Positions 17,079 to 31,196 of a stretch of 34,654 bases of DNA are shown piece after piece. The number at the start of each line of letters is the position of its first letter. The stretch's first letter is position 1. The position numbers and the translations under genes are program-made. The notes below the pieces were generated by a model, which did not search any database, was not told where the DNA came from, and worked only from the letters and a program-made list of their open reading frames with translations. The stretch is from Prevotellaceae bacterium (GTDB taxonomy: Bacteria > Bacteroidota > Bacteroidia > Bacteroidales > UBA932), in the NCBI GenBank assembly GCA_031270335.1, contig JAISXV010000116.1, positions 1 through 34,654 on the forward strand. Direction: 5' to 3'.

Positions 17079-17663
17079 TTATCTTTGTGTTTTCATCTCT
17101 AAAATTTTAACTCCACACTTATACAGCATCAGTATTATTTGCTGACAAACGATTCCGAATGTTGCTCCGCAGACGACGTCGAGCGGAAAATGTTTTCCCA
17201 CATAGATACGGCTGTATGCGACGCATACAGCCCAAAAGAATATCCAGACGGTGAAATATCTGTTTTTGAAGAACCATGCGGTAAACATTGCGAAACAAAA
17301 TGCGTTTGCCGCATGGTTTGAGATAAATCCGTATTGTCCGCCGCAATGTTCGAGGGAATGGATCAGGGGTTTGAGTTCATCGACATGACATGGACGCAAC
17401 CGTTCGAAAACATTCTTGAACAGATGTACCGACAGTTGGTCGGACATTGCGAATGTTGCGCCGAGCAAGGCAATCATCAATATACTTTTCCATACGGGCG
17501 TTCCACGGAACATAAATCCTGCAATACCCAAATACATCGGAATCCATAGATATATATCGCTGAAAGTCTTCATTACGGGGTCGAGCCAATCGAAATGAAA
17601 CCCGTTGATGATAAGAAACAGTTCAGTATCCCATTCGGGAAAACCGGTATTACTCATGAACAT
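17079..17663 (-). CDS. PAP2-family phosphatase (undecaprenyl-pyrophosphate or PgpB-like)
   Basis: 194 aa; FERLRPCH, GFISNHAANAFCFAMF, YSRIYVGKHFPLDVVCGA, matching the KxxxxxxRP / PSGH / SRxxxxxHxxxD pattern. Confidence 0.9.
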   Translation of the reverse strand: MFMSNTGFPEWDTELFLIINGFHFDWLDPVMKTFSDIYLWIPMYLGIAGFMFRGTPVWKSILMIALLGATFAMSDQLSVHLFKNVFERLRPCHVDELKPLIHSLEHCGGQYGFISNHAANAFCFAMFTAWFFKNRYFTVWIFFWAVCVAYSRIYVGKHFPLDVVCGATFGIVCQQIILMLYKCGVKILEMKTQR

Positions 17664-19173: not shown

Positions 19174-20499
19174 TCAATCATTTTTTTCTTCCTGTTGCGG
19201 ATTCATAAACATTACAAAAGCTTTACTCAATTTCTGCACCCATTCCGGCAACCGCTTTGGCGGCAGCGGTGGTGGCGGCGGCGGTTGTAACGGCGGTGGC
19301 GGCGTCTGTTTCGGCGTGAAACTATCCAGATGGTCGAATCCGCACATTATAAGTCCTACTGCAGTTGAATATTTGGGATGTATGACGCTAACGTCGGAAT
19401 CGACAATATTGTTGGGATTGCCAATGACGACTTCGATGTTCATTCGTTTTTGTATTGCCGGTTCCTTTCCGGCAAGATCTTTTAACCGTTGAAGGAGAAA
19501 ATCTCTTAATCCTGACATTTTCGATACTCCGCCGGTTATCACAAGTCCTGCGCCGAGTTTTCCGCACTGCGTTTTGTTGATTATTTCGTACATCACCATG
19601 TCAATAATTTCGTTCAGTCGCGAAGTGATTATTTTCGTTATAATGTCGAGCGGAATATCGCGTGACGGGCGACCGTTGATGCCTTCGACACGGACGCTGC
19701 CTTCGGTGTTTGCCGTGAGTCCGAACTGTATTTTGATTTGTTCGGCTTGATTGAACATCACGCTGCAAATGTTCTTAATGTCTTCGGATATAGAATTTCC
19801 TCCGAAGGGGATTACGGCAGTGTGGATGATTGTATTATCTTTATATACAATTAAATCTGTAGTTCCGCCTCCGATATCAATCATTGCGACGCCCATTTCT
19901 TTTTCGTCGTCGGAGAGTGTTGCCCTTGCCGATGCGATGGGTTCGAGAATCAACTTGTTCATCGACAGGTTCAGTTCTCTCATACAGGTATTTGTGTGTA
20001 TTCTGTTTGCCATGTTTCCTATCACCACGTAATAATGCCCTGTCAGTTTGTTTCCGAGCCGTCCGATGGGGTCGGTGATTCCATTTCTGTTGTCAATGCT
20101 GTAATACTGCGGGATGACATGCAATATTTCGGTGTCGGGACTGAGATGCATTCGTCCGGCATTCACTTCGAGTTCTGCGATTTCTTCTTTGGTAATCATG
20201 GAATCATATTGGTCACGGATTTTTTCCACTCTGTTTTCGATACACGTAATATGTTGTCCGGCAATGCCGACATATATGTTTTCGAGGTTTGTGATTCCGG
20301 CTTCGGCTTTGATTTGCGTCAGAGTGGGAATTACGGCATTGACAACTTTCGAGATATGTTCGACTTGTCCGCGCCGGATTCCGTCGGAGGGGGCTTCGCT
20401 GTATGCGACAATTTTGTAATTCTCGTTTTCGGTTTTTTCGCCAACGAGACTGACCACTTTTGTCGTCCCCAAATCTATTGCAACTACATATTTAGGCAT
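19174..20499 (-). CDS. ftsA: FtsA-like cell division protein, paralog 1 (proximal to ftsZ)
   Basis: 441 aa; VAIDLGTTKVVSLVGE, MIDIGGGTTDLIVY, LVITGGVSKMSG, HPKYSTAVGLIMCG; poly-Pro linker and C-terminal amphipathic helix LPEWVQKLSKAFVMFMNP. Confidence 0.92.
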   Translation of the reverse strand: MPKYVVAIDLGTTKVVSLVGEKTENENYKIVAYSEAPSDGIRRGQVEHISKVVNAVIPTLTQIKAEAGITNLENIYVGIAGQHITCIENRVEKIRDQYDSMITKEEIAELEVNAGRMHLSPDTEILHVIPQYYSIDNRNGITDPIGRLGNKLTGHYYVVIGNMANRIHTNTCMRELNLSMNKLILEPIASARATLSDDEKEMGVAMIDIGGGTTDLIVYKDNTIIHTAVIPFGGNSISEDIKNICSVMFNQAEQIKIQFGLTANTEGSVRVEGINGRPSRDIPLDIITKIITSRLNEIIDMVMYEIINKTQCGKLGAGLVITGGVSKMSGLRDFLLQRLKDLAGKEPAIQKRMNIEVVIGNPNNIVDSDVSVIHPKYSTAVGLIMCGFDHLDSFTPKQTPPPPLQPPPPPPLPPKRLPEWVQKLSKAFVMFMNPQQEEKND

Positions 20500-21812
20500 T
20501 ATACTTTTTCTTTCTTTTCGTACAGGGCGTTTTTGAATATATCCATAAACGATTTTAACGTTGTGGGTATATTTCCGTTATCGTCACTGTCGCTGTTATT
20601 ACTGTTGATATCGTTAGTTGACAACCGGCGTTTGTTGATTTCGGGTGTTAGATTTTTCTCACGGCTGTCGAATCCGCACATTAACAGTCCTACGGCTGTC
20701 GAATATTTCGGATGTATGATTTCTTTCGGCGAGCTTTCGGATATGTATCCGGGTCGTCCGATTCTGACGTCCATACCGGTTTTCAGTTTCACAAATTCCC
20801 GCAGATGCGTCATTTGCGAGCCTCCGCCGGTGAAGACTATTCCTGCGCCAAGTTTATGGTCGTTATCTGCATATTTCCTGATTTCGAAGAGTATCATGTC
20901 CATGATTTCTATCATTCGCGCTTCGATAATACTTGCCAGCGATTTGAAAGATATTTCGCAGGCTTCGCGTCCTTCTCCTCTCGGCACGGCGATGATATGA
21001 TGTTCCGGCGTCATCGACGCAATACATGAACCGTATTGTATTTTGATGTTTTCAGCGTCACGCATAGGGATGTCGCAACACATCTTGATGTCGTGTGTGA
21101 TAGTGTTTCCTCCGAAGGGGATTATTGCGGTGTGCCTGACGACTTTATCGTGATAAATAATCAAGTCGGTGGTTCCTCCGCCCATATCGACCATGACGAC
21201 GCCCATTTCTTTTTCGTCTTCGGAGAGTATGGCTCTTGCCGACGCCATCGGTTCGAGTATCATCTCTTTCAGCGAAAGATTCAACCGCTCGATACACACT
21301 TCGGTATGCCGTGTCGAAATGCCTCTTTCGATTATCACCATGAAATTGCCGGCGAGTTTATATCCCAGACGTCCTGCGGGGTCGGTTATTTCGTTGATAT
21401 CATCGACGCTGTATGTCTGTGGGATGACATGTATAATTTTTTCGCCTGCGTTGACGTGCAGCTTGCGGGCGTTAGATTCGAGCGTTTTGATTTCGTCGTT
21501 TGTAATCATTTCTTCATACTTTGGTCGCAATATTTCCGTCCGGTTTTCGATGTACCGTATGTGCAAGCCGGCAATACCCACATATACTTCGTTGATTTCG
21601 GATATCCCGGCAATAGCCTTGATATTGCCAAGCGTGCCCTGCACCACTCCGACAACAGTCTGTATATTTTCGACTTGACCGTGCCTTATGCCTAACGAGC
21701 GCTCTTCGGAATACGCCAAAATCCTGATACGCCCGCTATTGTTAATCTTTTCGCCTACAATACTCACTATTTTTGTAGTGCCTAAATCTATCGCTGTCAA
21801 ATAGTCTGCCAT
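20499..21812 (-). CDS. ftsA: FtsA-like cell division protein, paralog 2 (distal)
   Basis: 437 aa; TAIDLGTTKIVSIVGE, MVDMGGGTTDLIIY, IVFTGGGSQMTHL, HPKYSTAVGLLMCG; C-terminal helix TTLKSFMDIFKNALYEK; TAATG stop/start overlap with paralog 1. Confidence 0.92.
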   Translation of the reverse strand: MADYLTAIDLGTTKIVSIVGEKINNSGRIRILAYSEERSLGIRHGQVENIQTVVGVVQGTLGNIKAIAGISEINEVYVGIAGLHIRYIENRTEILRPKYEEMITNDEIKTLESNARKLHVNAGEKIIHVIPQTYSVDDINEITDPAGRLGYKLAGNFMVIIERGISTRHTEVCIERLNLSLKEMILEPMASARAILSEDEKEMGVVMVDMGGGTTDLIIYHDKVVRHTAIIPFGGNTITHDIKMCCDIPMRDAENIKIQYGSCIASMTPEHHIIAVPRGEGREACEISFKSLASIIEARMIEIMDMILFEIRKYADNDHKLGAGIVFTGGGSQMTHLREFVKLKTGMDVRIGRPGYISESSPKEIIHPKYSTAVGLLMCGFDSREKNLTPEINKRRLSTNDINSNNSDSDDNGNIPTTLKSFMDIFKNALYEKKEKV

Positions 21813-21835: not shown

Positions 21836-22621
21836 TCAATTATCTTTTTTTATCGCTACAATCTGTTTATCAAATCTCAGGTCAAGAATTGCGTATGGAG
21901 CGTCGTTTTCGGCTCTGTAATACGGATTCACTTTCCTGTAGAAGGTCAACAGATTATCTAATTTCTTTTCGTAACCGTGCAATTGCCCGAAACGTATCAG
22001 ATGATTGTCCGAACATACTGCAAATGCAACATTTTTGTTTTCGTCGATGTCAATTTGCTGAATCTGCACGTTCCAGAACTCATCGTTCGAAATATGTCGC
22101 GTAAATGCCAGCAGATTGTGTGCAAAACGGGCGTCGCTCATTGTTTTTCCATCAGCGGGCAACCGGATTTTACCCGTCGCCAGAGGCACGTCGTACGCAT
22201 ATCGTTCCGAAACGGGAAAAGCTATGCCTTCGTCATCTAAATAACACGAACCCGACGAGGTCAACAAACGTACGATCGGCATTCGTTGTTCGATTTCTAC
22301 GTGCAGAATACTGTCGCCTGTCTGATATACAAGCGCATTTTTCACCGGACTTTTTGATTTGACTAATTTCAATATCTTTTTTATCACCTCATCGTTCAAA
22401 CGCTTGCCTTTACCAGCGATTCTACTTTGTTCAATCATTCGTTTGAAATCACCGGATGTTATCAACTTTGCTGTTTCCGCATTCCGTATTTTTACGTCGA
22501 TTCCTTTGCATACAGGGTCGCCCTTTGTGCTGCATACGTATATGGACAGACAAACTACTACCGCTAATATCGAAAGAATCAGAGTAATCCTTTTCCATGC
22601 AATCTTCCTTTTCATTGCCAT
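21836..22621 (-). CDS. ftsQ: Cell division protein FtsQ/DivIB
   Basis: 261 aa; single N-terminal TM, POTRA-like region KGIDVKIRNAETAKLITSGDFKRMIEQ, VEIEQRMPIVRLLTSSGSCYLDDEG; directly upstream of ftsA genes. Confidence 0.88.
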   Translation of the reverse strand: MAMKRKIAWKRITLILSILAVVVCLSIYVCSTKGDPVCKGIDVKIRNAETAKLITSGDFKRMIEQSRIAGKGKRLNDEVIKKILKLVKSKSPVKNALVYQTGDSILHVEIEQRMPIVRLLTSSGSCYLDDEGIAFPVSERYAYDVPLATGKIRLPADGKTMSDARFAHNLLAFTRHISNDEFWNVQIQQIDIDENKNVAFAVCSDNHLIRFGQLHGYEKKLDNLLTFYRKVNPYYRAENDAPYAILDLRFDKQIVAIKKDN

Positions 22622-26341: not shown

Positions 26342-28543
26342 ATGTGCGAAGTGTTGTTACAAAGAGAATTAATCAACAAACCCGGGAAAATCGGGAAAGG
26401 AAAATTTAGTATCAGGATTATATTTGTCGGATTACTTTTAATTTCGAACATTTCATTTGCGCAAAGAAACGTGAAATATGAGAATGTTGTCAAAAAAGTA
26501 ATCAAGTTAAGCAAGGAAGAAGCTTTTGGCGAATACTCCGATTTTCTCAGTTTAAATCCTTATATCGAAAGGGCGAATCTGTACTATCAATTAGCCGAAC
26601 TTGCTTCGTCTATAATGAAGGATATGAATCCTTTAACCGATTACGACCGGATTAGACGCCTGTACGATGCATCCGACAACTATTATCTCATTTGTGATCA
26701 ATATATCAATGATAATGAAGTGCGTAAAGACCAGGCGCTTTTCACTGCAGTACGAACCTCGCAACGAAGATTGTCGGCTCAGGACGTCAGTCTGTATATC
26801 AGGACAAAACGCAGCATTGATTCCATATTTTTTGCGGAAATATCGGAAACATTCAAATCGTTCACTTTGATGGTCGATTCGTATTACCGTTGTATGGACG
26901 TTTACAAAAATATCTGCGCTAATAATAGAAATATCAACGATTTATATGTTAATTGGAATGACAGTAAAGAAGCTTTGTCGTTGATGATAAGCAAATTCGA
27001 TTCGATTGCGTATTTCAAAAATCTTCTTAGTGAAAAAGGTCCAAATCTGAACCTTACCTATAAAAATATAGTCGATTTCAAGATAGATGGATTCTCGCCG
27101 ACTGATTTTAAGAACATTGCTGAATTATGGGATTATAAAGAGTGGGCTGTTCAACAGCAGAAATATTATAATGAAACTGTGCATAAGACAGTTGAAAGAA
27201 CACGAATTGTCGAACAAAAGTTAGATATGCACATTGAAGAAATTCACGCATCGAAAACGCCAATTTCTTCAAAAAACTATGCCGATAACGATTTAATGGA
27301 AGAATTAAAAAACTTGCAGGAAATCACGTCTTTATATTTAGATATCGAACGAAAATACAGAATTATAGATTTCTTGAATTTAGTGTACGACGAAAAAAAT
27401 ACTCCCGTAAGCACAAATTATTCCGTTGACAAACAGGCAGATTACATCTATTCACTCATGGAAGCGTATTTCAGGATATTGGATATTGATAAGAAAATAG
27501 AAACAAAATATCCTTCGATGAAGAAAAAATCTTCGGAAACGGAATCAAACGATGAATCAATTTACAGTCTGTATAATAGCAGTATCGAGAATTATAAACA
27601 ATACGTCATCAACTCGAAAATAGCAGGAAAAGTTGACAATTTCATCTACAACAAGGCGAACAACATTCCGAAAATCAGAGGCTCGGGTTTTTATCGACCT
27701 TCGAGTTCGGGATATATAGTGAAAAATATAGTGAAAAACGACGACGGAAGCGTTTTTCTGGGGGGCGCGTCCATCAATTCGCAAGGATATTCGATTGCAT
27801 TTACGGCATTCAGCGCCGATGCTCATAACGTAAACTGGCTGAAAACCATTGATATATCCAAGATGATTTACGACGATTGTTCGATGTCGGTTTGCAGTAT
27901 TCCGGCGGGAGTGATGAGTTTGGTTAGTTCCAAGAACGTTTCAGACCCGGCTTTGACAACGCAAATGATTGTAAAATACGATATTAAAGGAAATGAAAAA
28001 CAAAAAATCACCTTGCCTGAGAAAAATTTTCCGTTAGGACGAACTATTTTCTATGACGAAATATCCGAAAATACATTGCTCACTTTTTACGGAAACACCG
28101 AAGAATGGTTTCGTGATAGCGTACTTATTGTACAACAGATTAATAAGGATAATCAGCAAAAATTTCGTGCGGATATTAAACTCAGTGGCGAATTGATAGA
28201 AATCTTTCCCTCAGATAACGGAAGATTCATATTATTTGGTAATTACGCCGAACTTGACGCTATGGGCAAAAAAGAAAATGCCGCTTTGGGAATTTTCTCA
28301 TTGATAATCGACCCCGAGGGGAACGTCGTAAAAACATCCGTATATCCCTCCGACAAGCCGAGATATGGAATTTGTGTGAACAGAATATCGCCGGAAACAT
28401 TCCTGATTTCAGGAACAAGCGGCAGTATCCGCAAAAACAATTCTGACCTTGTGCCTTCGGAAGGCGAACCTGTCGTTATTATGACGCATAGCAATGGCGA
28501 TTTTGCAGGCGAATATAAAAAAAATAAATATTTCGAGCAATGA
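26342..28543 (+). CDS. Hypothetical secreted protein (733 aa): helical N-terminal region, beta-rich C-terminal region
   Basis: Long ORF with signal-like segment FSIRIIFVGLLLISNISFAQ; no family recognised. Confidence 0.8.
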   Translation: MCEVLLQRELINKPGKIGKGKFSIRIIFVGLLLISNISFAQRNVKYENVVKKVIKLSKEEAFGEYSDFLSLNPYIERANLYYQLAELASSIMKDMNPLTDYDRIRRLYDASDNYYLICDQYINDNEVRKDQALFTAVRTSQRRLSAQDVSLYIRTKRSIDSIFFAEISETFKSFTLMVDSYYRCMDVYKNICANNRNINDLYVNWNDSKEALSLMISKFDSIAYFKNLLSEKGPNLNLTYKNIVDFKIDGFSPTDFKNIAELWDYKEWAVQQQKYYNETVHKTVERTRIVEQKLDMHIEEIHASKTPISSKNYADNDLMEELKNLQEITSLYLDIERKYRIIDFLNLVYDEKNTPVSTNYSVDKQADYIYSLMEAYFRILDIDKKIETKYPSMKKKSSETESNDESIYSLYNSSIENYKQYVINSKIAGKVDNFIYNKANNIPKIRGSGFYRPSSSGYIVKNIVKNDDGSVFLGGASINSQGYSIAFTAFSADAHNVNWLKTIDISKMIYDDCSMSVCSIPAGVMSLVSSKNVSDPALTTQMIVKYDIKGNEKQKITLPEKNFPLGRTIFYDEISENTLLTFYGNTEEWFRDSVLIVQQINKDNQQKFRADIKLSGELIEIFPSDNGRFILFGNYAELDAMGKKENAALGIFSLIIDPEGNVVKTSVYPSDKPRYGICVNRISPETFLISGTSGSIRKNNSDLVPSEGEPVVIMTHSNGDFAGEYKKNKYFEQ

Positions 28544-30173: not shown

Positions 30174-31196
30174 ATGGCGTTATCTTTATTAACTCAAGAC
30201 CTTGCAATGGATTTGGGTACAGCGAATACAATAATTATGTACAACGACAAAATTGTCGTTGATCAACCTTCAATCGTCGCTATCGACCAAAATACCGGCA
30301 AAACAATCGCTATCGGTGACACTGCCAGACAAATGCACGGCAAAACTCATAAAAATATAAAAACGGTGCGACCTCTGAAAAACGGCGTAATTGCCGATTT
30401 TGAGGCTGCCGAACAGATGATTCGAGGAATGATCAGAATGATTCCTTCTAAATCTCGCTTTTTTACTCCTTCGTTGCGTATGGTAATCTGTATCCCGTCG
30501 GGAAGCACTGAAGTGGAAATTAGAGCAGTACGTGATTCTGCCGACCAGGCGGGAAGTCGTGAAGTGCATCTTATTCACGAGCCTATGGCTGCCGCTCTGG
30601 GTATCGGAATCGACGTCGAAGCGCCGGAAGGAAATATGGTCGTGGATATTGGCGGCGGAACAACCGAAATTGCGATTATCTCGCTCGGAGGCATTGTCTG
30701 CAATGTGAGCATACGGATCGCAGGCGATGATTTTACCTCTGATATTCAGCAATATATGCGCCATCAACACAATATCAAAGTTGGTGAAGCAACCGCAGAA
30801 GAAATCAAAATCAGGGTAGGCGCTGCTTTGACCGACCTCGAAAACCCGCCCGACGATTTTGTCGTGAGAGGTCCGAACATTATGACCGCGCTACCGATAG
30901 AACTGTTGGTAAATTACGAAGAAATAGCACATTGCCTCGACAAGTCGCTGATAAAAGTGGAGGCGGCGATTATGTCAATACTGGAACAGGCGCCACCCGA
31001 ACTGTATGCCGATATCGTCAAAAACGGAATTTTCCTTACCGGCGGAGGCGCGTTGTTGAAAGGATTAGATAAACGTCTGAAAGAGAAGATAAATATCGAA
31101 TTTAAAGTTCCCGAAAATCCATTGTTAGCCGTAGCCCGAGGCTCCGGAATCGCAATGAAAAAACTCGGTAAAGGCGTGCCTTATCTGTTTAAATAA
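30174..31196 (+). CDS. mreB: Rod shape-determining protein MreB
   Basis: 340 aa; DLAMDLGTANTIIMYNDKIVVDQPSIVAID, VVDIGGGTTEIAIISLGGIV, FLTGGGALLKGLDKRL. Confidence 0.96.
   Translation: MALSLLTQDLAMDLGTANTIIMYNDKIVVDQPSIVAIDQNTGKTIAIGDTARQMHGKTHKNIKTVRPLKNGVIADFEAAEQMIRGMIRMIPSKSRFFTPSLRMVICIPSGSTEVEIRAVRDSADQAGSREVHLIHEPMAAALGIGIDVEAPEGNMVVDIGGGTTEIAIISLGGIVCNVSIRIAGDDFTSDIQQYMRHQHNIKVGEATAEEIKIRVGAALTDLENPPDDFVVRGPNIMTALPIELLVNYEEIAHCLDKSLIKVEAAIMSILEQAPPELYADIVKNGIFLTGGGALLKGLDKRLKEKINIEFKVPENPLLAVARGSGIAMKKLGKGVPYLFK

Follow-up and report, generated by a model that had tools for sequence, protein, structure and literature searches.

Two diverged tandem ftsA genes between an ftsQ-like gene and ftsZ in a Prevotellaceae bacterium

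Organisation of the division locus

The window, meaning the whole stretch of 34,654 nucleotides that was analysed (contig JAISXV010000116.1, assembly GCA_031270335.1), carries on its minus strand a cluster of division genes in the order ftsQ-like gene, ftsA copy A2, ftsA copy A1, ftsZ and PAP2-family gene. The features are listed in order of transcription.

21836 to 22621, minus strand: ftsQ-like gene, first in the cluster, assigned by homology and by its shared position upstream of ftsA in relatives
20499 to 21812, minus strand: ftsA copy A2, upstream and more conserved, 437 aa, TIGR01174
20497 to 20501, minus strand: TAATG, overlap of the A2 stop and the A1 start, the same in the related genomes G104 and G100
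19174 to 20499, minus strand: ftsA copy A1, downstream, ftsZ-proximal and more diverged, 441 aa, TIGR01174
17668 to 19143, minus strand: ftsZ, TIGR00065 at 335.8 bits (cut-off 295.2)
17079 to 17663, minus strand: PAP2-family gene, after ftsZ in transcription order

An earlier sequence-only reading had described two tandem, full-length and diverged ftsA genes between an ftsQ-like gene and ftsZ (its paralog 1 is A1 and its paralog 2 is A2), and this description stands: both ORFs were located, both pass TIGR01174, and the proteins are 49% identical over 405 aa. The product of the ftsQ-like gene is 70-80% identical to its counterparts in G100 and G104 and 34% identical to that of the sister genome G007, and no Pfam or NCBIfam match was found for the gene. 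The TAATG overlap suggests translational coupling of A2 and A1; in three further genomes of the genus (G103, G105 and G020) the two copies are separated by short gaps of about 20-40 bp instead. Elsewhere in the window, a 733-aa ORF with no Pfam match (26342-28543) lies upstream of mreB (30174-31196).

Family membership, fold and conserved motifs

Both proteins are genuine members of the FtsA family, scoring 292.4 bits (A1) and 308.0 bits (A2) against the NCBIfam profile TIGR01174, for which the curated cut-off is 175.85. The concern that one copy might belong to another actin-like family, such as PilM or DnaK-like proteins, was not borne out, the PilM profile giving 31 and 24 bits, far under its cut-off of 133. 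The sole further match in the window's assembly is MreB. PF02491, the SHS2/IC insertion in the actin fold, is present in both copies. AlphaFold2 models, built from alignments of the window's proteins and those of related loci, have a mean pLDDT of 87.9 for A1 and 85.9 for A2, with TM scores to E. coli FtsA (7q6d) of 0.89 and 0.93 respectively, and for each model the top 19 neighbours in a search of PDB structures are FtsA chains.

The actin-like phosphate motifs previously noticed in both copies are indeed kept, and the full set of nucleotide motifs (G16/T17/K19, D210/G212/G213/T215 and T335/G336/G337 in E. coli numbers) is intact in A1 and A2; phosphate and adenosine motifs are retained in every FtsA copy of the genus. 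The two models also contain the C-terminal amphipathic helix that had been proposed from the sequence, with a hydrophobic moment within the top 3% of each protein, and amphipathic tails occur in all FtsA copies of the genus. The helix is real in both proteins, where it is presumed to act as the membrane anchor.

20508 to 20564, minus strand: A2 C-terminal amphipathic helix, residues 417-435, presumed membrane anchor
19186 to 19245, minus strand: A1 C-terminal amphipathic helix, residues 419-438, presumed membrane anchor

Two proposed hallmarks of paralog 1 did not survive comparison with its orthologs. Its adenosine-binding signature, TGGVSKM, reads TGGVSKM, TGGVAKM, TGGGAKM or TGGASKL among A1 orthologs, and single-copy FtsAs vary at the same position (TGGG, TGGS, and TGGA in E. 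coli), so that TGGV was rejected as the sign of a non-ATPase copy. The poly-Pro linker is found in this genome only, the orthologs having Thr-Pro-rich or charged linkers; linkers are hypervariable, and their composition was discarded as a functional mark. Since the nucleotide motifs are intact in both copies genus-wide and neither the TGGV nor the linker difference is conserved, the suggested division of the pair into one ATP-dependent and one structural FtsA is unsupported. Behind the TGG motif A1 also carries about 14 inserted residues (19453-19494), modelled as a helix and otherwise seen only in the G104 ortholog.

Occurrence of the tandem

The window's assembly is a fragmented metagenome-assembled genome (MAG) of 2.9 Mb in 290 contigs, 83% complete, and all 13 genomes sampled from the genus are fragmented MAGs. 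ftsA was detected in eight of them and is tandem in six (G000, G020, G103, G104, G105 and G100, the last with A1 cut by a contig end). G101 has A1 only, at a contig end, and G056 has two ftsA copies on different contigs, in separate division loci. Of the five genomes in which ftsA was not found, three (G039, G082, G102) also lack ftsZ and G094 has ftsZ at a contig end; the fifth, G070 (92% complete), has ftsZ alone (L108, 6950-8848), and about 560 bp upstream of it appear to be noncoding. Wherever the ftsQ-ftsZ region is whole among the 13 genomes there is never just one ftsA, and ftsZ occupies one place per genome wherever it was detected. G056, a member of this uncultured Bacteroidota lineage, comes from a termite gut, and the window's own genome may have a termite-gut origin as well.

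That the tandem might be an artefact of assembly or binning is very improbable. The genomes are indeed all fragmented, no ftsA was found in five of the 13 and several contigs end at the locus; however, in the window the copies overlap by one base on a single contig, flanked by the ftsQ-like gene and ftsZ, and independent genomes whose FtsAs are roughly 40-73% identical show the same gene order.

Outside the genus, a single FtsA is the rule in 93 sampled genomes from 25 further genera of the family, apart from a few incomplete genomes with none or a fragment and one exception, G035. Exactly one FtsA match was found in 371 of the 392 genomes sampled elsewhere in the order and in 115 of the 117 sampled elsewhere in the phylum (G570 had none), and no tandem ftsA was present in either sample. 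Six genomes elsewhere in the order with two ftsA genes were considered as further tandems, but in all six the genes lie on separate contigs or are contig-end fragments. Text searches of the open-access literature turned up no description of naturally tandem ftsA paralogs. The objection that the duplication might be already common or described gains no support from these samples and searches; the survey of ftsQ-ftsA-ftsA-ftsZ synteny that had been proposed indicates a tandem that is real, restricted to the genus in these samples and apparently undescribed.

Two other genomes carry second copies of a different kind. G586, from another class of the phylum and 98% complete, has two full-length FtsA matches on separate contigs (C27:22029-23141 and C39:77583-78695). 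G035, from another genus of the same family, has two division clusters (L113, 4883-8724, on G035:C8, and L114, 4728-8161, on G035:C7), of which one is a usual ftsQ-ftsA-ftsZ and the other encodes an MreB-like protein, FtsA and FtsZ in a row. The MreB-like protein is an MreB paralog of 419 aa encoded directly upstream of the second ftsA, and the extra cluster is possibly a second divisome set.

Evolutionary history

The proposed phylogeny against single-copy FtsAs was computed by maximum likelihood from 74 FtsAs, including 14 copies from the genus, all of which fall into a single clade (100/99), next to which stands the single-copy G007. This nearest sister has one ftsA in the canonical order murG-murC-ftsQ-ftsA-ftsZ; a decayed second ftsA was sought in its 459-bp ftsA-ftsZ gap and none was found. 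In a copy-class tree from which the long-branched G020 was excluded, the downstream copies cluster together and the upstream copies likewise (four of each, 98/97 and 100/99), and adding G105 weakens this support to 79/78 and 53/8. Topologies in which the G056 copies join these two classes were rejected (AU p 0.0008 and 0.0005), and one that pairs them with each other was not (AU p 0.41). The simplest reading is one tandem duplication for most of the genus and a second, probably independent one in G056, with older conversion between copies as the alternative. Large recent gene conversion between A1 and A2 was rejected, their four-fold sites being 36-47% identical overall; one small patch is better conserved in two genomes.

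The loci of G056 (L100, L101 and L102) cover scattered division genes. Copy 1 follows ftsQ and precedes a tRNA-like stretch, copy 2 is separated by 47 bp from the preceding gene for a PASTA-domain transpeptidase (ftsI-like), which is near rsmH/mraW, and ftsZ is alone on a third contig, so that both ftsA copies stand in division-gene settings.

Divergence between the two copies

Within each copy class dN/dS is about 0.14-0.25 (NG86, with dS near saturation), and both A1 and A2 are under purifying selection. Mean identity to 14 single-copy FtsAs was compared by subdomain: it is 45% (A1) and 46% (A2) in IA, 38% and 41% in IC, 53% and 55% in IIA, and 38% and 53% in IIB, where the single-copy proteins are 59% identical among themselves. 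In IIB, group-fixed losses of consensus residues number seven in A1 and none in A2, against five and six in the other subdomains. The A1 losses in IIB concentrate in one helix, whose sequence in A2 and relatives is ISFKxLAxIIEAR, immediately before R300/E303 (E. coli numbers).

20907 to 20960, minus strand: A2 IIB helix, (E/x)ISFKxLAxIIEARxxEI, conserved as in single-copy FtsA
19609 to 19662, minus strand: A1 IIB helix, DIPLDIITKIITSRLNEI, ISFKxLAxIIEAR consensus lost, R294 and E297 (the R300/E303 equivalents) kept

Subdomain IIB also binds the FtsZ tail (structure 4A2A), and R300 and E303 of FtsA matter for this binding. The equivalents of both residues are present in A1 and A2 of the window, the helix around them being lost in A1, and A1 orthologs mostly retain them (R300 is lost in G105). 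Longitudinal contacts in the filament are made by IIA-IIB and lateral ones by IC (PMC7613929). The asymmetry varies between genomes: consensus losses are scattered through every subdomain in G105 and G056, and G020 has diverged in both copies. The divergence that recurs lies in IIB of the ftsZ-proximal A1 and was not noted in the earlier reading; its statistics are borderline: Fisher p ranges from 0.018 to 0.2 with the threshold, and the comparison was picked after the difference had been noticed, so that the asymmetry is a lead and not proof.

Two elaborations were examined and set aside. A second FtsZ docking motif to accompany the second FtsA was rejected, as both FtsZ tail motifs also occur in single-copy relatives. 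A complementary specialised interface between A1 IIB and A2 IIA was rejected because the A2 changes in IIA are mostly conservative swaps, and the charges of A1 and A2 show no complementary pattern.

Interpretation

The reading we favour, to which we give a probability of about one half, is that the locus encodes two active FtsAs made together, with A2 as the conserved FtsZ anchor and A1 as a modified filament subunit. In the ancestor of most of the genus, ftsA would have been duplicated in tandem inside an ftsQ-ftsA-ftsZ cluster and both duplicates retained as working FtsA proteins. Produced together from coupled genes, both would be ATP-binding, membrane-attached components of the Z-ring. A2, keeping the ancestral IIB surface, would be the main FtsZ anchor and filament former, and A1, with an altered IIB helix around retained R300/E303 equivalents, would be a further subunit, altering contacts in the filament or the binding of FtsZ; the simplest way would be co-assembly with A2. 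The heteromeric A1/A2 filament suggested earlier is an attractive hypothesis, and a variant divisome is plausible; the paralogs are co-transcribable and diverged. The stronger version is doubtful, namely an obligate two-subunit division actin, a mixed A1/A2 filament in which alternating longitudinal contacts are non-equivalent and FtsZ anchoring and filament architecture fall to different subunits.

The main rival is simple redundancy or dosage, in which both copies do the same ancestral job, either suffices and their difference is drift since the duplication (neutral subfunctionalisation). This is possible, though we hold it unlikely: all motifs are intact in both copies and the G056 copies are dispersed over different division loci, as expected without fixed pairing, but the pair is old and retained genus-wide with about half of its residues different, divergence is repeatedly asymmetric between the copies, and both are under purifying selection. 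Less probable again is that A1 has taken on a cytoskeletal role outside the divisome, its place in the cluster being only inherited. A1 is the faster copy in IIB and its linker is hypervariable, yet it still adjoins ftsZ and mostly keeps R300/E303, the ATP motifs and the anchor, and the second copy of G056 follows an ftsI-like gene.

Relation to known systems

FtsA is, to our knowledge, almost always single-copy. A1 and A2 resemble canonical FtsA (TIGR01174; 7Q6D, 7Q6F, 4A2A) in fold, SHS2/IC insertion, nucleotide motifs, C-terminal amphipathic helix and ftsQ/ftsZ flanks, and differ from it in being two diverged tandem copies, one of which lacks the conserved IIB helix sequence. Duplicated bacterial actins are known in the MreB paralog sets, such as MreB and Mbl of Bacillus and MreB1-5 of Spiroplasma, whose copies presumably share out the work or mix; the comparison is one of analogy, and those actins serve rod shape or motility. 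A core division filament protein is also duplicated in FtsZ1/FtsZ2 of plastids and archaea, and the plastid isoforms form heteropolymers. There the tubulin homologue is doubled, in contrast to the actin-like anchor here, with ftsZ at one place.

How the filament state of FtsA and its tethering of FtsZ drive division is still debated, and interest in the locus is moderate until a functional difference between A1 and A2 is demonstrated. The natural pair offers a case for asking whether a division filament can have two kinds of subunit, and because A2 keeps and A1 appears to have lost part of the IIB surface, the roles of FtsA might be separated by gene swaps instead of point mutants. The probably independent pair in G056 suggests that something in the genus favours two FtsAs.
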